This document shows positions 43,417 to 55,354 of a stretch of 64,000 bases of DNA, piece by piece. Source of the DNA: Dyadobacter fanqingshengii (GTDB lineage: Bacteria > Bacteroidota > Bacteroidia > Cytophagales > Spirosomataceae); assembly GCF_023822005.2 (NCBI RefSeq), contig NZ_CP098806.1, positions 3,720,001-3,784,000 of the forward strand. Reading direction: 5' to 3'. Within the stretch, counting starts at the first letter, position 1. Every line of letters begins with the position of its first letter. The translations under genes were made by a program, and so were the position numbers. Under the pieces are notes generated by a model. It did not search any database. It had not been told where the DNA came from and saw nothing but the letters and a program-made list of their open reading frames with translations.

Positions 43417-45240
43417 GTGATCATGAAACGGCTGGTTTTGTTTGTGCTTCTTTGCGGCGCCCTATCTCAGATGGGTATGGGCCAGAATGTGGCATTGGGC
43501 CAGTGGGAAACGCATTTCAATTATCTTTCCGCGAAGCACATAGTTCGGGTTAATGATCACATTTTTTGCGCTTCGCATAACGGCCTTTTCAGCATTCATA
43601 CCATTGATAAGCATATCAAAACCTGGTCAAAATCAGACGGTCTGACGAGCACTGGAATCAGCAGCATGGCTTTTGATCAGGAGCAGAATCTTTTGCTTCT
43701 GGCGTATAGGGATGGCAATGTTGATTTGGTTTATCTGGATCAATCCGTGCAGCCCGAACAAATTATCAGTTGGCCCGTTTTTGCGCAGAATCCCGATTTA
43801 CCAGAAAATAAGAACATCAAGCGTGTCATTTTGCGGGAAAATCTCGCCTACCTCTGTACTGGTTTTGGCATTGTGGTTCTGGACATCAAAAATCAGCAGG
43901 TCGAAGAAACCTACCGTTATATCGGAACCAATGGGACGCAAGTATCTGTAAGCGACATTGCCTTTGCTGGTGACTCACTATTTGCGGTAACGGCGCAGGG
44001 AATTCTTGCAACTTCCATGTCTCCGGCTGTTAACAGGCAGTATTTTGCCAATTGGAAAACAGTTGCGACGCCGGCAAAAGCGGTAGCCATTGCGGCCAGT
44101 GCTGCTCAGCTTTATATAGGTTGTGCAGGCAGGGGTTTATACCAAAGAGAAAAAGGGAACTGGAAATCTGTCTTCCTATCAAGCAGCCAAACGTATTTTT
44201 TAAATGCATCAGAAAATGAACTCACCGCCACATTGGATGATCGGGTCATTTTATTCAACCAAAAAAACGAGGCGAAAACATTCACTAGCCCTTTGTTCAA
44301 AGCTCCTGAGGAATCAGTTCAGATAAATAGTGAAAGGTTTTGGATCGCCGATGCAAAAAATGGTTTGCTCCATAACGAAAACCAGGCATTTCAATCTTTC
44401 GCTCCCCTACAAGCCGACACCACTATTTTCCCAAGAAGAGATTCTTCCATTATTGATTTGAATGCACTCAGCTGGACAAGACTTCCGGAATATCTGGGCG
44501 GCGGCATATTGGTCAAAAACACTCAGAATCAGCAACGTATTCTTACAACAAATTTGGGAAGCGGCAGTTTGCCTTCTTCTATTGTTAATAGTCTGGCCAT
44601 TGATGTGGATGGAAACATTTGGTTTGCGAGCGATAAAGGAGTTGGCTATTTTGTTACTGATGACATTCTGAATGCGGCGAGGGTCGATGCTGTTTTGCCT
44701 ATTTACGGCCAGCGAAGACTTTTTGCCAATGAAAAATGCACTGCAATTGCTATTGAACCAGGCAATCGAAAATGGATAGGCACACGAAACGGCTTGTATC
44801 TGTTCAATGAAGATGGGACTGAGTTGATCCAAAAAATTTCTGCAGCCGACAGTCCTTTACCCTCCGATTCAATCAGCGCATTGCAATGCGACTCCGAAAA
44901 AGGCATTTTGTTTATTGATACACCCAATGGAATGGTTTCGTACAGAAGCAATTCCACAACCTCGTCTGAGGATTTTTCGGGTGTAAAGATATTTCCCAAC
45001 CCGGTGCAGCCCGGATATGGAGGGACGATTGGCATAACTGGCTTGATGAATGATTCGGTCGTTAAAATCACTGAACTTTCCGGCCGCCTGATTTACGAAA
45101 CAAAGTCGCAAGGAGGCACCGCTTCCTGGGATCTGAATGATTACACCGGCAGACGTGCCAAAGGCGGAATTTATATGGTCCTCATTGTGACCTCCGACGG
45201 GAATGAGAAGTTTGCCGGAAAACTGGCCGTAATAAACTGA
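43417..45240 (+). CDS. porZ: PorZ-like type IX secretion surface protein
   Basis: This 607-residue exported protein opens with ALGQWETHFNYLSAKHIVRVNDHIFCASHNGLFSI and contains two-component-regulator-type propeller blades (SDGLTSTGISSMAFD, IDVDGNIWFASDKGVGYF, NRKWIGTRNGLYLFNEDG). A C-terminal beta domain follows (VKIFPNPVQPGYGGTIGITG ... GGIYMVLIVTSDGNEKFAGKLAVI). This is the layout of PorZ, which works with PorU, PorV and PorQ to attach T9SS cargo to anionic LPS. The sorting-type domain is retained on the surface. The udk start lies 4 bp after its stop. Confidence 0.85.
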   Translation: MIMKRLVLFVLLCGALSQMGMGQNVALGQWETHFNYLSAKHIVRVNDHIFCASHNGLFSIHTIDKHIKTWSKSDGLTSTGISSMAFDQEQNLLLLAYRDGNVDLVYLDQSVQPEQIISWPVFAQNPDLPENKNIKRVILRENLAYLCTGFGIVVLDIKNQQVEETYRYIGTNGTQVSVSDIAFAGDSLFAVTAQGILATSMSPAVNRQYFANWKTVATPAKAVAIAASAAQLYIGCAGRGLYQREKGNWKSVFLSSSQTYFLNASENELTATLDDRVILFNQKNEAKTFTSPLFKAPEESVQINSERFWIADAKNGLLHNENQAFQSFAPLQADTTIFPRRDSSIIDLNALSWTRLPEYLGGGILVKNTQNQQRILTTNLGSGSLPSSIVNSLAIDVDGNIWFASDKGVGYFVTDDILNAARVDAVLPIYGQRRLFANEKCTAIAIEPGNRKWIGTRNGLYLFNEDGTELIQKISAADSPLPSDSISALQCDSEKGILFIDTPNGMVSYRSNSTTSSEDFSGVKIFPNPVQPGYGGTIGITGLMNDSVVKITELSGRLIYETKSQGGTASWDLNDYTGRRAKGGIYMVLIVTSDGNEKFAGKLAVIN

Positions 45241-45942: not shown

Positions 45943-46647
45943 ATGATCAATTTTACACACATTAGCAGATCGGGCATTTATTCATTTTTGTTGATAGGCC
46001 TGCTATTTTCCTGCAAGCACGACCGCACTGAACCGGTTGATTCTTACAGCTATTATCCTTTGGAAATTGGTCGGTTTCTGATCTATGACGTTAAGGAAGA
46101 GGTTTATTCGGCAGGACAGGCCAATCCTGTAAAAAAGAGTTGGCAGGAGAAAGACGAGGTTGACAGGGTTTCAACCGATGAAAAAGGGATTTCTACTTAC
46201 ACCATTTCCAGATCGAGAAGAAATATCGCAACTGAATACTGGCAGAAGGAAAAAGAATTTACCGTGCAAAAATATCCCGATAAGCTGCTGACCAACATTG
46301 ATAACCAGACATTCTTTTCGCTGGCTTTCCCTGTTAACTCCAAAGTTGAGTGGAACGGAAACAGCTACAATAGTTTGGATGCACAAAATTACCATTACGA
46401 AGATTTGAACAAGCCGGTCCAGGTTGGGGCTCAGTCTTTTGACAAGGTGCTGGTAGTCGTGGAACGGAAAGACACTTCGATAATAAACCGATACATTGGT
46501 GTAAAGCAATACGCCTTGGGCGTAGGCCTGATTTCTGATGACCAGACGGCCTTTGAGCTCTGTCAAAGCGAGGATTGCATAGGTTCCGGTAAAATCGAAT
46601 CCGGGACGCACAGGAGCCGGATTATTGTAGAATTCGGTAAACGTTGA
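45943..46647 (+). CDS. Lipoprotein of unknown function
   Basis: This 234-residue protein begins at ATG 45943 with MINFTHISRSGIYSFLLIGLLFSCKHDR, a signal with lipobox LFSC. The upstream in-frame ATG at 45883 would add a hydrophobic but unconvincing 20 residues. The mature part begins with YYPLEIGRFLIYDVKEEVY, resembling small beta-barrel lipoproteins of Bacteroidota, and ends GSGKIESGTHRSRIIVEFGKR. No catalytic motif is visible. It is the last gene before the lasso locus, 132 bp upstream of that precursor gene, and appears unrelated to it. Confidence 0.75.
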   Translation: MINFTHISRSGIYSFLLIGLLFSCKHDRTEPVDSYSYYPLEIGRFLIYDVKEEVYSAGQANPVKKSWQEKDEVDRVSTDEKGISTYTISRSRRNIATEYWQKEKEFTVQKYPDKLLTNIDNQTFFSLAFPVNSKVEWNGNSYNSLDAQNYHYEDLNKPVQVGAQSFDKVLVVVERKDTSIINRYIGVKQYALGVGLISDDQTAFELCQSEDCIGSGKIESGTHRSRIIVEFGKR

Positions 46648-46711: not shown

Positions 46712-46742
46712 TTTGCAAATTAAATTTATCTGAGTAAATTTA
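46712..46742 (+). promoter_or_regulatory. Promoter of the lasso-peptide operon
   Basis: TTTG (46712-46715), a 19-bp spacer and TAAATTTA (46735-46742, 7 of 8 positions of TAnnTTTG) form a Bacteroidota-type promoter. The predicted start is near 46749, about 30 nt before the precursor ATG. It indicates that the precursor has its own transcript rather than depending on the upstream lipoprotein gene. Confidence 0.6.
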
Positions 46743-46779
46743 CGCCGGATACTGGTATTAATCACATAACTAATTCAAA

Positions 46780-46929
46780 ATGAAAACAGTGAATTCGCAC
46801 TCTACACAGACAAAGAAGTCTTATCGCAAACCAACCTTGAACAGGTTCGGAAATGTTGCTAAATTGACAAAAGGAAAATTAGGCAGCGCTGCTGATCTTG
46901 GCCCTACGTTTGATTTCGACGGACTTTGA
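46780..46929 (+). CDS. Lasso-peptide precursor (A gene)
   Basis: The 49-residue peptide begins MKTVNSHSTQTKKS. The segment YRKPTLNRFGNVAKLTK then fits the leader-recognition motif YxxPxLxxxGxxxxxTx exactly, with Y15, P18, L20, G24 and T30. Thr at -2 places cleavage after K31. The core GKLGSAADLGPTFDFDGL (18 residues) starts with Gly1 and has Asp8, the right distance for a Gly1-Asp8 isopeptide ring of eight residues. F13 and F15 are possible tail plugs. The cyclase gene starts 24 bp after the stop. Leader and core are both intact. What remains inferred is that the product is made, since no leader-binding or protease gene is nearby. Confidence 0.88.
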   Translation: MKTVNSHSTQTKKSYRKPTLNRFGNVAKLTKGKLGSAADLGPTFDFDGL

Positions 46930-46953: not shown

Positions 46954-48909
46954 GTGATTATTCAAGGTGTAGTTAGTTTTGATAATCTTCCGTGTGCAAG
47001 TACCGAAGACAAAATTAATGACATTATAACCTGGGAGAATGGATGGTTCTCATCCGTAACATTAACCCCTAGTACGAGGCTGCAACATGTCTTCGCATTA
47101 GGGGTTAATTTTTTGGGTAACCGGGAGCCGGAATATTTAAACCAAACATACGCTGGTAAATCGACTGGCTTTCAGTTCGATTCCGATTTATCAAATCCTG
47201 AATCAGATTTCGATCCAGGCAATTTTGGTGCTTGGTTTGATGAAACTCGCCAAACGCTTTACCTAACCAGGGATGTTTTTGGGGTTATTCCCACTTACTA
47301 TCTTTATGTTCCGGACTCTTTCGTGGCATTTTCGACTAGCCTCGTCTCTTTGATTAAAATGCCCGTATGTCGCCCCTATTTACAGCTGGACTCCGATAGA
47401 ATCGTTTCTTATTCCCGTTTTCGGGGTGATCAGTCTGGTAGTTATTCCTCTGGGACTTTTTTTAAAAATATTAAGACTGTTCTTCCCGGACACATTATTT
47501 CCGTATCGTCAGATAATATTACAAGCAGGCCGTTTGCCCGCTTTGATCCTGATAAATGGAACCATTTGCATTCAATTGAAGAATATGGGCGAGCCTTCAA
47601 AGATCTTTTTTTCAAATCCGTTGAGCGGACCATTGGGCGTGATGAAGCGAAAGTTGGCTCGCACCTGAGTGGTGGGATGGACTCATCCTCCATCAGTGCG
47701 GTTGCCAAGGCACTCGACCCGGGACTTGCATTGCATACGCTATATTTGGATACAAAAACAAAATATTCAGATGAGATTGGATTTGCTGGGGAAGTCGCGG
47801 AAAAAATCGGTTCGATACACCACGAAGTGCCTCCTTCCAATGAAGATTTTGAAATAATATCCCGCTACACATCTGTTTACGGGCATCCGGAATGTATGGT
47901 TATAAGCCCTTCGTCTCAGGGAAGTCTGATGGAATTTGCAAGTCATCTCGGATGTAAAGTTCTATTGATAGGTCATGATGGCGACTCTGTCGTGGGAAGC
48001 GGCCTCGAAAAATTGACAAAAGCCTACTTTGAGAGAGATTGGTCTCACCTGAGAGCGCTAATCCTGAAAAGAGCTCCATACGCTTCTTTAAGCCGTGTAA
48101 TTCCTCAGTGGGAGATTCTAAATCCGGGTGAGAAGATTAGCAGATACACAAAGCATTTGATTGTCAGCAAGTTCTTTGAGCAGCTCAAACGGCTCAAACC
48201 TTTGGAAATAGGGAAGCTCCTTATTGAATCTTCAAGGCAAATGAATGTTTCAATATGGCATTTTTTCACAGCGGGGATGGAAAGGCTTTGGAAAAAGCTC
48301 ATCAAAACAAAAACACTTGAAGGGACAATTCTTAAACAGGAATTTGCTGCCGTTCATGTAGCCAAACGGGAAAATCTGGCTGACTTACTTAGAGGAGATT
48401 TACCGCTGACATACAAAGTATGGTTTGACGATGTTTTTAACGGTCAGACTATTATCGCCAGTGAGCAATTTTTTGCACTGGGAAATCATTATGCCTTGGA
48501 AAACCGGTTCCCATTTTATGATAAGGACCTCTTTGAACTATGCATTTCAGTTCCGATGGAGGTGAAATTCGGCAGAGGAATTGGACGTGAACATTTCAGA
48601 GAAGCAATGAAAGGTCTGCTGCCTGAGTCTGTGAGAAGCAGGGCTGGCAAAGCCAATTTTAGCATATATGGCCGGGAAGCGGCCCTTCGGCTATATCATC
48701 AATCAACCGGGCTAATGCAGGATGACAGTAACTTTGTCTGGCACTTTGTGGATAAGCAAAAGTATCTCAATTCAGCGGCGATTCTGGTGGACCAACACGC
48801 GTCCGAATCCAATCACACACTGTCCCAATTCCATGTAACACGCGCTATATCACTTGCAATTTGGTTTGACTGGCTGAAAAAGAACGATTTACTTCCGACA
48901 ACTTCGTAG
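46954..48909 (+). CDS. Lasso-peptide cyclase (asparagine-synthetase-like C protein)
   Basis: This 651-residue protein starts at GTG 46954; a stop codon lies 12 bp upstream in frame and no ATG is near. The N-terminal glutaminase-like domain opens MIIQGVVSF without the catalytic Cys2 of asparagine synthetase B (MCGI). It therefore cannot use glutamine, as expected for a lasso cyclase. The synthetase domain has the PP-loop SHLSGGMDSSSISA (about 240-253), the ATP-site region KVLLIGHDGDSVVGSG, and the late block LENRFPFYDKDLFELC plus GIGREHFREAMKGLLPESVRSRAGKANF. It would activate Asp8 by adenylation and close the ring with Gly1. It is 24 bp downstream of the precursor. No B1, B2 or transporter gene adjoins it. 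Confidence 0.85.
   Translation: MIIQGVVSFDNLPCASTEDKINDIITWENGWFSSVTLTPSTRLQHVFALGVNFLGNREPEYLNQTYAGKSTGFQFDSDLSNPESDFDPGNFGAWFDETRQTLYLTRDVFGVIPTYYLYVPDSFVAFSTSLVSLIKMPVCRPYLQLDSDRIVSYSRFRGDQSGSYSSGTFFKNIKTVLPGHIISVSSDNITSRPFARFDPDKWNHLHSIEEYGRAFKDLFFKSVERTIGRDEAKVGSHLSGGMDSSSISAVAKALDPGLALHTLYLDTKTKYSDEIGFAGEVAEKIGSIHHEVPPSNEDFEIISRYTSVYGHPECMVISPSSQGSLMEFASHLGCKVLLIGHDGDSVVGSGLEKLTKAYFERDWSHLRALILKRAPYASLSRVIPQWEILNPGEKISRYTKHLIVSKFFEQLKRLKPLEIGKLLIESSRQMNVSIWHFFTAGMERLWKKLIKTKTLEGTILKQEFAAVHVAKRENLADLLRGDLPLTYKVWFDDVFNGQTIIASEQFFALGNHYALENRFPFYDKDLFELCISVPMEVKFGRGIGREHFREAMKGLLPESVRSRAGKANFSIYGREAALRLYHQSTGLMQDDSNFVWHFVDKQKYLNSAAILVDQHASESNHTLSQFHVTRAISLAIWFDWLKKNDLLPTTS
47061..47115 (+). 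terminator. Terminator-like hairpin inside the cyclase reading frame
   Basis: ATTAACCCCTA (47061-47071) and TAGGGGTTAAT (47099-47109) form a perfect 11-bp stem around a 27-nt loop, followed by TTTTT. It lies about 110 nt into the cyclase gene. It may attenuate transcription so that precursor transcript exceeds cyclase transcript. The long loop makes efficiency uncertain. Confidence 0.4.
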
Positions 48910-48929: not shown

Positions 48930-51900
48930 CTATTTTAGGATTACCACTCTGCCGGAGAAAATTTTTCGCGTCTCAGTTCCCGTTTTTAAATTCAGCTTAT
49001 AAACATACGTTCCGGACGGAATATGTAGGTCCGGGATCCAATACCAGTCCTTTGTTCCAGCACTTCCTAATTGAACGTCCCCTTCATCCAGAGCAACCCC
49101 TTTAAGCGAATACATTGTCCAGTGAACCGATTGTTCAGCCTCTTTGCTCCCGGCGTCTAAACGGAACCTAACATAGGACGAAGCTGGGTTTGGGCTTACT
49201 GTGAGCTGATTTTCCTGATTTTCCTCTATTACCTTAAATACAATGCGATAGGGGTTGGCCGAAGCATTGGAAGATGCATCTTTTGCATTAACCAGTAATT
49301 CATATGTGCCTGGTTTCAAGTCCTGAGCTTGGTAAGTTATCGTTATAGATCTCTCTGTTAAGGACGATATTTTAAGACCATTGCCTGAATAGGAAAGCTT
49401 AGTAAAGTCACAATCGCTGCCCTCGCAAGGCTTGATGAAAACATTGACCAGTGAAGTGTCGGGAGACAAAATGCGATCATCCTCGAGCTTAATAGCGATC
49501 GATGTACCGGGATCGACCACGTCATTATTTTCAATAATTCTATCATCGAATTTAACTTCCAAAACCGGCGCAATCAAATCCTTCAACGGAGCACTTGGGT
49601 AGAAATTTAATGTTTTGGCGACATCCCATTCAACAATAAGCTCGGAATTATTATTCCCTTTGCTCAACTCTGGCAGCGTATTAACAGGGTCTATTTTGAA
49701 AAGAATCCGCTTAATATTTTTTCTGTTTGCAAATGAGAATGATAGTGTATCCTGATAAGCCATAGCAGAAACGGTCTCATTTTTTATTTCATTTTTACCA
49801 TCGTTGTATTGTATTTCGACTTGGACAGGCACTTTTTGATCCTTCATGTAGCGCCCTTCATTTGCTAACTGAACAACTGCCCGAATGGTGGCTGAGTTGT
49901 CGATCGTTTTACCGGCGGATTCAGAATAGAGCAGAATAGCATCATTTGCCCCAACGGCGTAGTCAGGCTTACTTACTGTGACCACTTTAATTGCCGGATC
50001 GCCTTGCAACAATGATTGATGAATGTTCGCGATGTCGTATTGATTGGCACCGGCACTCACAATCTTCTGGGCAACTACGGCCTGGACTCTGCCGATAGAA
50101 GCGCTGGAAGTCGCTTCGTCTGCAAACATTGTGTTGTAGAGATTACTCAGGTATTTGCTGGATGAACTCACATAACTTTCAAATGAATTGGCAACCAAGG
50201 CAACCGTGCCCTTTTTCGGCGTTAGTATCCAATCCATAGATAACGGTCTCCGGTCTGATGCAGTCGGACTGGTGTTATACCTGGCCGCAAAAACGTTTCC
50301 TACACCGCATCCATTGAAAAACATGAAAGGATATTTCTTATAATTATTGTACCCCCTGTCAGCGTCTGTAATGTAGCCCATATCCAGGTCGGTAACAGTT
50401 GCAGACCCATGTCCGAAATAAGTGATCATGCCGACGCCCTCGTTAACTTGCGGCGTAATGTTCACCTTTTCAACCTCGGAAATGGCCTGCTGCTTTACAA
50501 AAGGCGTTACACGCCCGCCAACAAACCCATTTTCAACAGCCGGTTTGAGCGTTTCAAGCACATTTTTTAGCTGAGTTATTTCACTCGCTGACTTTCCTCC
50601 ATTCAAATGTAAAATCTGCTTTCTCCAACCCAGTTCCTCACCATCATTCAATTCATATTCTTTTACTTTTTCCAAATAGTCCTTAATGTGCTGATCTGTC
50701 ATTGCGGGCAAGCGACCTACGCTCAAAGCGGGAACGTCACGGCTTACCCCGCCTAGTCCTTCAACCAAAAGAATGTCTGAGGCTGGAAACCCGATAGTTG
50801 GAACCTCTTCCGGCAGTTCTTTTTTCATGCGTTCGGTCAATGATATTGATTTCCCGATCAGAAAAAGGGATTTGTTCTTTACCCCATCTGAAATCATATA
50901 ATCAGCGAATCGACGAATACCGAGCGGACTAGGTTCACCGTAATTAAACTGATTATACACATCCTTAATGTTCGCCACCACTGTTTTAAAGCCTCCGCCC
51001 GTTTGTGAAGCACGATACGCAGCATATTCAGTCGATCCGGCCAGCAAATTTTCACCACTCACAATCATGTAGTTCGCGGCTTTCGGATCAAACCTTTGAA
51101 ATGTAACAGCACTGACCTTCGTTGCAGGAACTGCGATTACCTCATTTGTAACCAATAATTTTGACGTCTTACCTGATTTTCGGGGAACCATGAAATTGGC
51201 GACATTACCAGCGATGACACGCAATGTGTCTGTTATATCATAAACTTTTACGCCCGCCGGTGCGCCCGTAGTCGCAACTTTGCTTAATATGCCTGCTTGC
51301 GGGTCAAGGGTTAATTCAACCGATTTTTTGGAAGCTATTGAGAAATTTTGCGGATAACTCACCGTGAAGTAAGCCAGCGAAAACCGCTCGTATTGATCGG
51401 TGCTAACCGACTTCAATGCAATAACCCCTTTAAAATTGGCATCCAAATCTGCTTTTTCAATTTCAAATTCACCATCTACCCCCTCGAAATTGGAACTGGC
51501 CAGGACTTTCGCCAACCTAAGCGTTTGTTCCGTTTTGCCGATGTAGACCTCCACTTTTCTTTCATTATTACTTCTCCCATGCACGAGCAATTTCACCTTT
51601 GGCTTGATGGAGTTGCTCACCAAATTGGTTAATTGTATGGGATATACCGACTGCACATTTTTTAATATGTTAGGCCCGGTCCTGCTGGCGCCTTTCTCGA
51701 AAAAGCTGTTGAAGAAGTTGGGGCGAAGCGGGCTGTTTGCGCCGAGCGAATAGTCTGTGCTGAGCACTGTGGACATCTTTGCTATGTGATACCCCACCGC
51801 CGGAGTCGATTCATTGACTGCCCTGGTGACAGTTTCAGCCCGAAGTGACTTAGAAGACGATACAGTAAGGAAATAAGCAGATTCGTCAGAATAAATGCTG

Positions 51901-52250
51901 TAAAATGGGTTCAGCCTGGAACTCATGGGGCGATATAACAGGGAGTCGCTTTCTCCGGTATTTGGAACACCATAGAATGATATTTCCTTATTCTCAATAA
52001 TGATAGCGACCTGCTTTCCTAAATGCCAGAGTTGTAATTTTTCTGGTTGATTAACCGGGAAGGATGCAGGAAGAACAGAAAATGGCACTTTGTGTATCCC
52101 TTTCGCATTCACTGCGATCTTTACGTAGGGTTGCTCGTAATTTATCCAGCTATTCGCATAAGGTGCAGCTGATTGCGCAAATCCTTCCCTGATGCAAAGG
52201 AATGTAAGCGAAATAGAAAAAAGAAGATGGAGAGTGTGTTTTATCATCAT
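48930..52250 (-). CDS. PorU2-like C25 peptidase with T9SS sorting domain
   Basis: This 1106-residue exported protein starts at ATG 52250 (MMIKHTLHLLFSISLTF) with signal cleavage near FAQS; the longer frame from 52298 adds a non-signal stretch. The N-terminal beta region carries LQLWHLGKQVAI and FYGVPNTGESDSLLYRP. The gingipain C25 domain has the caspase-like dyad H614 in TYFGHGS and C648 in FNGCGVG. The C terminus is a type A sorting domain (LTVSPNPASSYVRF ... SGTYVYKL ... IFSGRVVILK). The architecture fits the PorU2-type relatives of the T9SS sortase. It is one of two tandem paralogues, each with its own terminator region, and is convergent with the lasso cyclase. Confidence 0.85.
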   Translation of the reverse strand: MMIKHTLHLLFSISLTFLCIREGFAQSAAPYANSWINYEQPYVKIAVNAKGIHKVPFSVLPASFPVNQPEKLQLWHLGKQVAIIIENKEISFYGVPNTGESDSLLYRPMSSRLNPFYSIYSDESAYFLTVSSSKSLRAETVTRAVNESTPAVGYHIAKMSTVLSTDYSLGANSPLRPNFFNSFFEKGASRTGPNILKNVQSVYPIQLTNLVSNSIKPKVKLLVHGRSNNERKVEVYIGKTEQTLRLAKVLASSNFEGVDGEFEIEKADLDANFKGVIALKSVSTDQYERFSLAYFTVSYPQNFSIASKKSVELTLDPQAGILSKVATTGAPAGVKVYDITDTLRVIAGNVANFMVPRKSGKTSKLLVTNEVIAVPATKVSAVTFQRFDPKAANYMIVSGENLLAGSTEYAAYRASQTGGGFKTVVANIKDVYNQFNYGEPSPLGIRRFADYMISDGVKNKSLFLIGKSISLTERMKKELPEEVPTIGFPASDILLVEGLGGVSRDVPALSVGRLPAMTDQHIKDYLEKVKEYELNDGEELGWRKQILHLNGGKSASEITQLKNVLETLKPAVENGFVGGRVTPFVKQQAISEVEKVNITPQVNEGVGMITYFGHGSATVTDLDMGYITDADRGYNNYKKYPFMFFNGCGVGNVFAARYNTSPTASDRRPLSMDWILTPKKGTVALVANSFESYVSSSSKYLSNLYNTMFADEATSSASIGRVQAVVAQKIVSAGANQYDIANIHQSLLQGDPAIKVVTVSKPDYAVGANDAILLYSESAGKTIDNSATIRAVVQLANEGRYMKDQKVPVQVEIQYNDGKNEIKNETVSAMAYQDTLSFSFANRKNIKRILFKIDPVNTLPELSKGNNNSELIVEWDVAKTLNFYPSAPLKDLIAPVLEVKFDDRIIENNDVVDPGTSIAIKLEDDRILSPDTSLVNVFIKPCEGSDCDFTKLSYSGNGLKISSLTERSITITYQAQDLKPGTYELLVNAKDASSNASANPYRIVFKVIEENQENQLTVSPNPASSYVRFRLDAGSKEAEQSVHWTMYSLKGVALDEGDVQLGSAGTKDWYWIPDLHIPSGTYVYKLNLKTGTETRKIFSGRVVILK

Positions 52251-52268
52251 TAATTTTTTTTCAAAAAT

Positions 52269-52314
52269 ACAAAAAGCATAGGCTGCAGTGTGTGACACAA
52301 CCTATGCTTTTTTT
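52269..52314 (-). terminator. Terminator between the two PorU2-like genes
   Basis: On the minus strand, AAAAAAAGCATAGG pairs with CCTATGCTTTTT across an 18-nt loop. It follows the first-transcribed gene (52325-55354). A TATTTTTG -7-like box overlaps the far end of the stem region just upstream of ATG 52250, so the second gene probably has its own promoter. Confidence 0.7.
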
Positions 52315-52324
52315 GCTGATTATT

Positions 52325-55300
52325 TTATTGTTTAACTAGTTTCCTCGAAATCACGTCGCCATTTTCAGTCAGGATTTCAACAATATATTCGCCGGAAGCC
52401 AGGTTTGAGATGTCCAATGTTAATTTGGTTTCGTTTCTTCTAACCACTCTTCCTTTGATATCCACCAAATTCCAGCTTTTTATCGCAACCGGCAGATCCA
52501 ACTTAATTTCTACAAAATCACTGGATGGATTCGGAGAAACGACAAGTGAATTCGTGTAAGGTCTGTTAACCGACACAATGGATGAAAGCGTCTTTTTACC
52601 CTCCTCGGTTTTTCCCTCGGAAACTTTATCTACTTGCACCAGGCGGTAATAACTTGTTCCTGGCAACGGCTTGTTGTCAAAGAATTTGTAAACGCTTTCG
52701 GTAGCCATGTCACCATTTCCTTCCACATACCCGATTTGCTCAAAATTCTTGGCATTATAGCTTCTTTCCACAAGGAAATGGCTGTTGTTTGTCTCGGAAT
52801 TCGTTTTCCAAGCAACTTCAACAGAACTGGCCGAAACCAGCTTCGCTTCGAAATAAGACAAGTCAACCGGCATACTTCCTTCCGTGCTGATCAGGATCCT
52901 AAGCGCCGGATCTCCCAGTAACAATGTCTGGTGCATTTGCGCTTGTCTTTTGCTGTAAGAAGCAGAAGCTATTCTCGCATTTTCATCTGCACCAAGTCTG
53001 TATGGATTGGGATTGTTTTTGGTTTCAATAGCCGTCTTGCGTAGAATCTGGCCGATAGTAAGGCGGTTCTTATCGCTTTGCCCGAAAATAATTGGGTAAA
53101 GCTCTTGCAGATATTCATTGCAGCTCTGGTTGTATCCGGCCCATGTGTTCCCAAACACGGCAACAGCGCCTCTTTTAGGATTTAATAGCCAGTCAAGTGA
53201 TTGGGCACGCGAAGAGCTAACATTAACCGTTTCATTAAACTGGTTGTTAAATACGTTCAGGATATCACAGCCATTGTAATACATGATCGCGAATTTACCT
53301 ACCCCCGCGTCTACGTTCTGATCCGTGTATCCTTTTGCGTTGTCTGAAACGTAGCCAAAGTTGTAGTCTGTTTGATAAGGCGCACTGTGTCCAAAATAGG
53401 TGATCATTCCTACGCCTGAATTAATAGCCGCAGAAATATCTAAAGGCTGTATTACATCACCATTCTGGGTCTTGTTTCTAACATCAATGGTTCCTCCAAA
53501 AGCTCCGGTGACAGCGTTACCTGCAGTAGCCAAGTTTCCGGAATGTATCCCAACTTCGCTAAGACTTTTTCCGCCGCTCACATGAAGCACTTTTTTTCGC
53601 CAGTCCAGTCCCGTTGTCGAGTTTTCGTACACTTCCACTTTCTTAAGATATGCACGAGCCTGCGCATTGTTGATTGCAGGAATCCGTCCCACGGGAATTG
53701 CCTCTACATCCTGAGGCTGACCACCCAGACCTTCAACTAGCAGAAAATCAGATCCAGGAAAACCAACGGTTGGCACTTCATCCACCAATTCCTTGGCTAC
53801 AATTTTATCATTTCTTGTGATCGACTTTCCTAAAAGCAACAAGTATTTTTCCAAGTTGCCATCAGAAACCATATAATCCACAAAGCGCCGGATTGCCACA
53901 GGGCTAGGCTCACCATAGTTGAACTGGTTGTAAATATCAGTAATGTTAAAGATGGTTGGAGCCTTGTACTTTTCGCCTGGGGTTTGTTCAGTACGATATT
54001 TTCTGAAATCTTCCGCGGCATCCAGAAGCGTTGTATTGGATATAATCAGATAATTGTAATCGGACTTATTATAGTTGGTAAAACTAACCGGGTTAATTTT
54101 GGCATCAGCGACCGTTGTTGGTGTCTGATTCGTTGCCAGTAAAACCAGCTCGTTCGCATTGGGTCTTGAGAAAACCAAACTCGCCGCTGTACCATTGATA
54201 ATCCGAGGCTTATCAATGTCCGTAATATCATAAAATTTCAGTGTACCGGCAGGCGCACCAGCGATAACGATTTTATTTTTTACCCCTTGTGAAGTCGCAG
54301 CAAAACGGAACTCGGCAGAAGCCGCGCTCAGCATATTGATTTGCTGATTGTAAGTTACATTGTAATAAGTCAGGGAAATCACATCATAAATGGTGTTGCC
54401 CTGGATATTTTCCGGACTGGCATCGGTCTTGAAACCCAACAAACCCTTGCCGTTTGCATCCAGGTCAGTTTCTTCCAGGTCAAAGTTGAACTTGCCGAAA
54501 GTGAAACCGGCAATGTATACCATGCCTACCTCTCTCAGGTTGGCAGCATCTTTTCCAACGTAAATATGAATGTTCCTGGAATCACCCGGATTTGAAGGAA
54601 AGAAGGTCCGCCCGTTGATCAACACTTCCACCTTAGGCTTATCTGTGCCAGATCTGGATTTAAGTGTAAAATCAAAGTCTTTTGTAGCATCTTTCGTGTG
54701 GATCGGATGGGTGGCACTGTCAAAAAGCCGCGGACCTGTCCTTGTCTTTCCATCCTCAAAAAAACTATTCTGGTCAATGGGTCGCAAAGGAATCGTTGTC
54801 GCATGCGAGTACTCGTTCGCCAACTGATAATTTTTTGACTCCGTTCTGATGTGCTGCGTTAAAGTAACCGACGAAGCATCACTTAATGTCTCTTCCGGAG
54901 CGCGGTCACCATTAGCAGATCCAACCGTTAAAAAGTACGAGCTTTCATCCGAATACATGCTGTAATACGGATTCGCCCTCGATGACGTCGGCCTGAAAAG
55001 CAGTTCGTCTGATTTGCCATCATTCGGCACGCCATAAAAAAGCAACTCAGCATTATCGACTTTCAGGATATTAACCTGCTTGCCCCTGTGCCAGAGCTGC
55101 AATTTGGCCTTATCCGCATTTTTGATCTCATTGGGCAACTTTGCAGAAGTCATTGCCACCCGGTAAACGCCTTTGGTCAATGCTCCGCTTACCACACCCA
55201 CATTAATCTTAACCCAGGGCTGGGAATATTTCCCTGCCAGCCAGTCATTCCCATAGGTTCCGCTCCACTGAGCCTGCACTTTTAAATTAATAGTGGTGAA

Positions 55301-55354
55301 TGAACAAACCAGTACCAATAAAAAAATAGTTTTTGTAAAAATTCTTGCTCTCAT
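52325..55354 (-). CDS. PorU2-like C25 peptidase with T9SS sorting domain (paralogue)
   Basis: This 1009-residue paralogue of the neighbouring gene has a signal peptide ending at VQAQ. LQLWHRGKQVNI and FYGVPNDGKSDELLFRPTSS are near-identical landmarks. The C25 catalytic H656 (TYFGHSA) and C696 (YYNGCDI) are present. A fibronectin-like insert (VSWEVAWKTNSETNNSHFLVERS-type) occurs in the C-terminal third: VEVAWKTNSETNNSHFLVER. The sorting domain VVSPNPSSDFVEIKL closes it. It lacks one beta module present in the sister protein. It lies upstream on the minus strand, with a 75-bp gap containing a terminator, so expression may be independent. Confidence 0.87.
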   Translation of the reverse strand: MRARIFTKTIFLLVLVCSFTTINLKVQAQWSGTYGNDWLAGKYSQPWVKINVGVVSGALTKGVYRVAMTSAKLPNEIKNADKAKLQLWHRGKQVNILKVDNAELLFYGVPNDGKSDELLFRPTSSRANPYYSMYSDESSYFLTVGSANGDRAPEETLSDASSVTLTQHIRTESKNYQLANEYSHATTIPLRPIDQNSFFEDGKTRTGPRLFDSATHPIHTKDATKDFDFTLKSRSGTDKPKVEVLINGRTFFPSNPGDSRNIHIYVGKDAANLREVGMVYIAGFTFGKFNFDLEETDLDANGKGLLGFKTDASPENIQGNTIYDVISLTYYNVTYNQQINMLSAASAEFRFAATSQGVKNKIVIAGAPAGTLKFYDITDIDKPRIINGTAASLVFSRPNANELVLLATNQTPTTVADAKINPVSFTNYNKSDYNYLIISNTTLLDAAEDFRKYRTEQTPGEKYKAPTIFNITDIYNQFNYGEPSPVAIRRFVDYMVSDGNLEKYLLLLGKSITRNDKIVAKELVDEVPTVGFPGSDFLLVEGLGGQPQDVEAIPVGRIPAINNAQARAYLKKVEVYENSTTGLDWRKKVLHVSGGKSLSEVGIHSGNLATAGNAVTGAFGGTIDVRNKTQNGDVIQPLDISAAINSGVGMITYFGHSAPYQTDYNFGYVSDNAKGYTDQNVDAGVGKFAIMYYNGCDILNVFNNQFNETVNVSSSRAQSLDWLLNPKRGAVAVFGNTWAGYNQSCNEYLQELYPIIFGQSDKNRLTIGQILRKTAIETKNNPNPYRLGADENARIASASYSKRQAQMHQTLLLGDPALRILISTEGSMPVDLSYFEAKLVSASSVEVAWKTNSETNNSHFLVERSYNAKNFEQIGYVEGNGDMATESVYKFFDNKPLPGTSYYRLVQVDKVSEGKTEEGKKTLSSIVSVNRPYTNSLVVSPNPSSDFVEIKLDLPVAIKSWNLVDIKGRVVRRNETKLTLDISNLASGEYIVEILTENGDVISRKLVKQ

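Follow-up and report, generated by a model that had tools for sequence, protein, structure and literature searches.

A predicted lasso-peptide precursor and cyclase in Dyadobacter lie far from the only lasso-type leader peptidase gene of the genome

How could a lasso peptide be matured if neither a leader peptidase nor a recognition protein is encoded beside its precursor and cyclase? This question is raised by a 49-codon open reading frame in a 64-kb stretch of the Dyadobacter fanqingshengii genome, referred to here as the window (G000:C1:3720001-3784000; genome 6.27 Mb, 99.73% complete). Lasso mining generally seeks the genes A, B and C together, and a split system would appear as an 'orphan' A-C pair and an 'orphan' B1-B2 pair at separate places. 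The first-pass annotation had recognized a precursor and a cyclase in the window, which stands, but it had overlooked that the recognition and protease genes are absent: the list of long open reading frames of the window contains no B1 or B2 near C and no leader peptidase. The features of the locus are the following.

45943-46647, plus strand: LP, lipoprotein-like gene directly 5' of A, a conserved neighbour
46712-46743, plus strand: promoter-like element TTTG-N19-TAAATTTAC, 5' of A
46780-46929, plus strand: A, probable lasso precursor gene, 49 codons (NF033521 match and conservation)
46780-46872, plus strand: predicted leader, residues 1-31, with the RRE motif Y15-P18-L20-G24 and Thr30 at position -2
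46873-46926, plus strand: predicted core GKLGSAADLGPTFDFDGL, 18 aa, with Gly1 and Asp8 as predicted macrolactam
46954-48909, plus strand: C, lasso-type cyclase, asparagine-synthetase-like, 651 aa (PF00733, NF033535)
48930-52298, minus strand: porU2-like type IX secretion gene converging on C (NF052324, 888.8 bits)

Gene A runs from the ATG at 46780 to the TGA at 46929, exactly the position and length first given for it, and encodes the 49-aa peptide MKTVNSHSTQTKKSYRKPTLNRFGNVAKLTKGKLGSAADLGPTFDFDGL. Its leader matches the RRE-recognition signature YxxPxLxxxGxxxxxTx at every position and is followed by Gly1 and Asp8; translation of the frame thus bore out the original description, including Thr at -2. 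In six frames, the full motif with Gly1 and Asp or Glu at position 8 has a single match in the window, and none was found in 200 first-order Markov sequences of window length, in which the leader motif alone occurs on average 0.015 times per 64 kb. Against the NCBIfam model NF033521 (lasso_leader_L3), A scores 21.2 bits and passes the cut-off of 19, and it is the only precursor match in the genome, adjoining C. Class II lasso peptides are defined by a Cys-free core; Cys is absent from the core GKLGSAADLGPTFDFDGL, and the C-terminal residue of the precursor is Leu. A chance open reading frame can be ruled out by the 0 of 200 Markov sequences together with the conservation in relatives described below. 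The 49-codon frame is real and, as far as its sequence can tell, very probably a lasso-peptide precursor. Calling it unannotated, on the other hand, was not correct, as the family is already known: besides the NF033521 match, 13 of 120 listed relatives, 12 of them from Dyadobacter, carry the NCBI name 'lasso RiPP family leader peptide-containing protein'. Since NCBI already names this precursor family in Dyadobacter, the peptide counts as a new addition to it.

Relatives of the genus offered the places where the precursor interpretation could have failed, either by loss of the motif and of Gly1/Asp8 next to a retained cyclase or by loss of the reading frame. Neither loss is the rule. All 17 aligned genus precursors share Y15, P18, L20, G24, T30, G32 (core Gly1) and D39 (core Asp8), and 25 of 29 named Dyadobacter loci have both Gly1 and Asp8. 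Among the resulting 46 A-C loci (the 17 aligned genus loci plus the 29 named ones, 37 distinct DNA sequences), 42, the window's own included, keep motif, Thr-2, Gly1 and Asp8 together. The G1/D8 exceptions are L070 (an extra copy in D. bucti), L079 (D. diqingensis), L090 (D. frigoris) and L091 (Dyadobacter sp. CY312). In the precursors of L090, L091 and L070, E1, N1 or L1 replaces Gly1 and the Asp is shifted; the adjoining C frames are open. The set of 46 omits some extra precursors, namely L108 and L122 (Leaf189 and D. crusticola), in which GKLGSxxD is kept with Thr at -4 and -3, as well as one precursor each from D. tibetensis (its second) and D. bucti (its fourth). The A frame itself was found in 35 of 35 distinct Dyadobacter genomes (33 plus G076 and G145). 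Between the precursor in the window and its nearest relative (G087), the compared leader and ring differ by four synonymous and no non-synonymous changes, and the tail by one amino-acid change. Over 226 pairs, pN/pS was 0.37 for the leader and 0.43 for the ring, by which measure A is under purifying selection. Conservation, selection, the NF033521 match and the adjoining C gene all support the lasso-precursor interpretation.

The downstream gene also fits its first description, starting with GTG at 46954, 24 nt past the stop codon of A, and lacking the glutaminase cysteine, as its N-terminus reads (M)IIQGVV without Cys2. C scores 117.5 bits against PF00733 (Asn_synthase), over the cut-off, and 210 bits against the lasso cyclase model NF033535, which is under the cut-off of 525 of a model that is by its name (lass_lactam_cya) of the cyanobacterial type. 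Of a glutaminase domain, no more than a fragment is seen, under the cut-off (22.1 bits, cut-off 25). All 14 aligned genus sequences share the LSGGxDSSS motif, which reads LSGGMDSSS in the window. We considered C as the housekeeping enzyme and rejected this, as a separate Asn_synthase gene with 298 bits is located at C1:60867-62000. The third and last synthetase match of the genome, at 3914021, is weak (22.4 bits); the start of this gene reads like argininosuccinate synthase.

Two further genes accompany the pair. The LP family has three invariant Cys residues (24, 207 and 212) in 15 aligned members, adjoins many C genes and was matched in 24 of 26 Dyadobacter porU2 loci. However, it is found in 111 of 150 family genomes, including some without a C match, and a role of LP as dedicated lasso immunity or export gene is therefore unsupported. 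The porU2-like gene shares its locus with C at 27 Dyadobacter loci out of 29 (the exceptions being L070 and L071) and at 10 of 11 named Spirosoma loci. From its sequence and position, it is a conserved neighbour of C and at most a possible member of the pathway. A second, tandem PorU2-like gene lies at 52325-55354 on the minus strand (NF052324, 578.6 bits), and PorZ is encoded at 43417-45240 of the window.

The genes absent from the window are found elsewhere on the same contig, in a minus-strand run at G000:C1:3160712-3163498, with B2 located 604 kb from C. B1 and B2 are adjacent (C1:3162784-3163498) and come first in the run, whose members are, in order:

B1, minus strand: RRE, 89 aa, the only PqqD/RRE match (PF05402, above cut-off) in the genome
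B2, minus strand: leader peptidase, 146 aa, the only lasso B2 match in the genome
K, minus strand: HprK-like kinase, 305 aa
N, minus strand: nucleotidyltransferase-like, 378 aa (NTP_transf_5)

B2, a transglutaminase-like protease, reaches 82.1 bits against NF033537 (cut-off 33), and its Cys85 and His119 are invariant in 10 of 10 aligned sequences. B1 stays under the cut-off of the lasso-specific model NF033536 (66.5 bits, cut-off 80) and matches the solved TbiB1 at 3.8e-10. K remains below the Pfam Hpr_kinase_C cut-off (21 bits, cut-off 33.3); its P-loop GxPGxGKS is invariant in 10 of 10 aligned sequences. No synthetase or precursor match was found near this run, and the other B loci of Dyadobacter likewise have no C match, nor does any ORF within 1.5 kb carry the full leader motif. 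At all genus B loci covered (16 unnamed and 26 named, with overlap between the two sets), the matches to B1, B2, K and N are grouped, and 24 of the 26 named ones also carry an aldehyde dehydrogenase gene.

The promoter-like element 5' of A gave no link between the two places. Its TTG, TA and TTTAC columns are the same in all 13 aligned upstream regions, which were chosen from the 46 loci, and its spacing varies, being shorter in L099, for example; it resembles the Bacteroidota -33/-7 consensus. The pattern has one match in the window, compared with a mean of 0.12 in shuffled sequences (at least one match in 10 of 100). It is not matched in 20 kb around B1-B2, so that co-regulation of A-C and B1-B2 is unsupported.

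The separation is not peculiar to this genome. All 17 own-genus genomes among the matches listed for 150 family genomes have both C and B2, never within 20 kb of each other; the two are on one contig in eight (559 kb to 2.36 Mb apart) and on other contigs in nine. In the named Dyadobacter genomes, exactly one B2 scored above the cut-off (27 of 27), and C and B2 are again far apart or on other contigs in all 27. As nine genomes are common to the two sets, A-C is apart from B1-B2 in 35 of 35 distinct Dyadobacter genomes. Since a different contig in a draft assembly gives no distance, the claim of a split is carried by the same-contig cases and by the flanks of C: a tblastn search of 31 Dyadobacter C loci gave no B1, B2, K or N match in the 17-18 kb around C. 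The two genes nevertheless tend to occur in the same genomes. Among the 150 family genomes, 54 have both, 4 only C, 14 only B2 and 78 neither (p 1e-22; outside the genus 37, 4, 14 and 78, p 6e-17), where the p values are a guide only because the genomes are related. A C match without a B2 above the cut-off was thus seen in 4 of 58 genomes, one of these assemblies being 83% complete. In the window genome, A, B and C are not in one locus, as is commonly expected of a lasso system; this lowers the case for a standard lasso cluster, not for a lasso system, because clustering is the usual layout and no chemical requirement.

In other genera, the genes can be contiguous. C lies within 20 kb of B2 in 9 of 11 g5 genomes and 5 of 9 g32 genomes, and unlinked C and B2 also occur in g4, g12, g18, g20 and others. 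B1 is present in the C locus in 9 of 11 named Spirosoma loci, four of these with all six genes. Altogether, seven loci hold all six families: L095 (Fibrisoma), L097 and L121 (Runella) and L098, L102, L103 and L110 (Spirosoma). The contiguity elsewhere is incomplete, as at three Spirosoma loci (L100, L105 and L112) C is accompanied by B1, K and N but a B2 match is missing; in these genomes B2 may lie elsewhere too. Spirosoma loci L109 and L115 are near contig ends. The one-locus layouts of relatives (B1 with C in those nine Spirosoma loci) and of the cyanobacterial outgroup are the reason why the split layout looks derived, a polarity read from gene layouts and not from a tree. The order aldehyde dehydrogenase-B1-B2, with K, is also seen in G003 (L064) and in Arundinibacter (L154), so the separation of the loci may predate Dyadobacter. 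In Rhabdobacter roseus (L096), an intermediate-looking stretch of about 17 kb holds B2, a 354-aa gene, two large genes, A, C, LP, porU2, K and N.

Taken together, we regard it as highly probable that A is a lasso precursor and C its macrolactam synthetase, with B1-B2-K-N acting in trans from 604 kb away. Following established lasso biosynthesis, B1 would bind the YxxPxL...G leader and present it, B2 would cut after Lys31, with Thr at -2, and C would adenylate Asp8 and close the Gly1-Asp8 ring around the tail. K, and perhaps N too, may add a phosphate or sugar, for which the conserved ring Ser is a candidate site. An exporter did not stand out in the gene lists of the two loci. That both loci are kept throughout the genus fits such an interaction and does not prove it.

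According to PMC9266682, paeninodin and pseudomycoidin combine precursor, leader protease and macrolactam synthetase with a kinase and a nucleotidyltransferase, and their ring is formed on Asp/Glu at positions 7-9. The Dyadobacter system resembles them in its tailoring-type genes K and N and in the predicted ring on Asp8, and differs in that A-C and B1-B2-K-N are at two loci. PadeK and PsmK are described there as phosphorylating the C-terminal Ser (PMC9266682). For K, such a target is unsupported: a C-terminal Ser is present in 7 of the 46 precursors, and that of the window has Leu at this end; in contrast, a GS dipeptide near the ring, inside the first 11 core residues, is present in 46 of 46. 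The seven one-locus relatives from Spirosoma, Runella and Fibrisoma have the same six families and a related leader motif, and five of them (not L095 and L121) have porU2 in the locus. Where the window has Gly1 and Asp8, however, their precursors, except that of L121, read T-x-K-x-G-S-x-x-D, which would place Asp at 7 after Lys1 if the Thr is at -2. The precursors of L097, L098, L102, L103, L110 and other Spirosoma and Runella loci thus either start their core with an uncommon residue or are cleaved at a different site. The core of L121 (Runella) looks different from both the other one-locus relatives and the window.

The layout leaves room for other readings. Given that A-C and B1-B2 are physically separate and that the promoter pattern of A is unmatched near B1-B2, A-C might mature independently, for instance with another protease, and B1-B2-K-N might belong to a different RiPP. 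We hold this to be unlikely: the only precursor match of the genome is the one at C, the Dyadobacter B loci offer neither a C match nor a nearby ORF with the full leader motif as an alternative client, B2 is of the lasso family, and in seven loci of relatives the B genes share one locus with A and C. It is quite improbable, too, that C makes another isopeptide or a cyclic unthreaded peptide and no true lasso. Threading cannot be read from sequence and C scores under the cut-off of the lasso cyclase model, but the precursor has a lasso-type layout (leader motif, Thr-2, G1, D8 and an 18-aa core) and the B2 family points the same way.

The separation of core genes could also be the first step of loss, leaving A-C as the decaying remnant of a broken-up cluster whose peptide is no longer made. 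The four of 46 precursors with broken G1/D8 and the divergence of C (median identity of 36% to the window gene over 26 loci) would be in line with this. Yet all 59 C frames used for the tree below are open over more than 400 aa, B1 has a median identity of 80% over 26 loci, the promoter-like columns do not vary in the 13 aligned regions, leader and ring show the pN/pS values given above, and both loci are kept in all 35 distinct genomes. We therefore consider decay very improbable and continue with the reading in which B1-B2-K-N act on A in trans.

Precedents for parts of this arrangement exist. Citrulassin is a lasso pathway depending on an out-of-cluster gene, a tailoring deiminase, with the rest of the cluster called canonical (PMC12971885), whereas in Dyadobacter the core genes themselves are split. 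In lanthipeptides, maturation proteases are reported to be unclustered and encoded elsewhere in the genome (PMC8960859); the leader protease lies elsewhere in both cases, and the RiPP class and the protease differ. These two appear to be the closest precedents among the sources covered. No lasso A-C/B1-B2 split is described in the titles, abstract beginnings and passages returned by a full-text search, outside of which the large 2017 lasso survey falls. The NF033521 annotation covers A and is silent on the split and on which B1-B2 serves it. The unusual part is the split layout with a shared B module, not the precursor family.

That the B module is shared is suggested by genomes with more than one cassette. 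Precursor searches in 36 genomes gave one match in 32 and more in four: two each in Leaf189, D. crusticola and D. tibetensis (the last being weak, E 0.006) and four in D. bucti. The corresponding C matches number two, two, two (the second of D. tibetensis being partial) and three, while each of the four genomes has one B2 and one RRE match. From the two or three C genes but single B1-B2 of these genomes, we infer that one B1-B2 module probably serves several A-C cassettes in trans. The fourth precursor-like match of D. bucti, at G151 C11:1048291-1048413, has no C match on its contig.

In a quick tree of 59 C frames, made without bootstrap and omitting L103, L109, L119 and all but six non-Bacteroidota loci, the genes from the Dyadobacter porU2 loci group with the D. 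bucti extras in a single clade (SH-aLRT 100). The extra C genes of Leaf189 and D. crusticola belong instead to a clade with sequences from Spirosoma, Runella, Fibrisoma and Arundinibacter, in which Spirosoma validum (L100) is their neighbour (support 92). This suggests, as far as C sequences can indicate it, that Leaf189 and D. crusticola acquired an A-C pair without B genes. Median identities to the proteins of the window genome were 80% for B1, 62% for B2 and 64% for K, compared with 36% for C, 49% for porU2 and 90% for udk (26 porU2 loci, not L070, L071 and L079; 26 of 27 B loci, not G167). These values fit a system in which the recognition side is conserved while core and cyclase change.

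It is thus possible, and we offer this only tentatively, that Dyadobacter has a two-module system, in which a constant B1-B2-K-N hub recognizes related leaders and serves, in trans, the maturation of several A-C cassettes that evolve fast and can be exchanged, some of which came from Spirosoma-like donors without B genes. K would then modify the conserved ring Ser, not a C-terminal one, and the peptide would be a core trait of the genus, not a sporadic antibiotic. If such a hub exists, a single RRE-protease pair works with several cyclases whose cores differ, which would amount to combinatorial RiPP biosynthesis in nature and would open leader portability to direct testing. In D. sediminis (G153, C1:412821-413350), a second RRE (57.3 bits) lies beside a weak B2-like match (25 bits, below the cut-off), possibly as part of another RiPP system.
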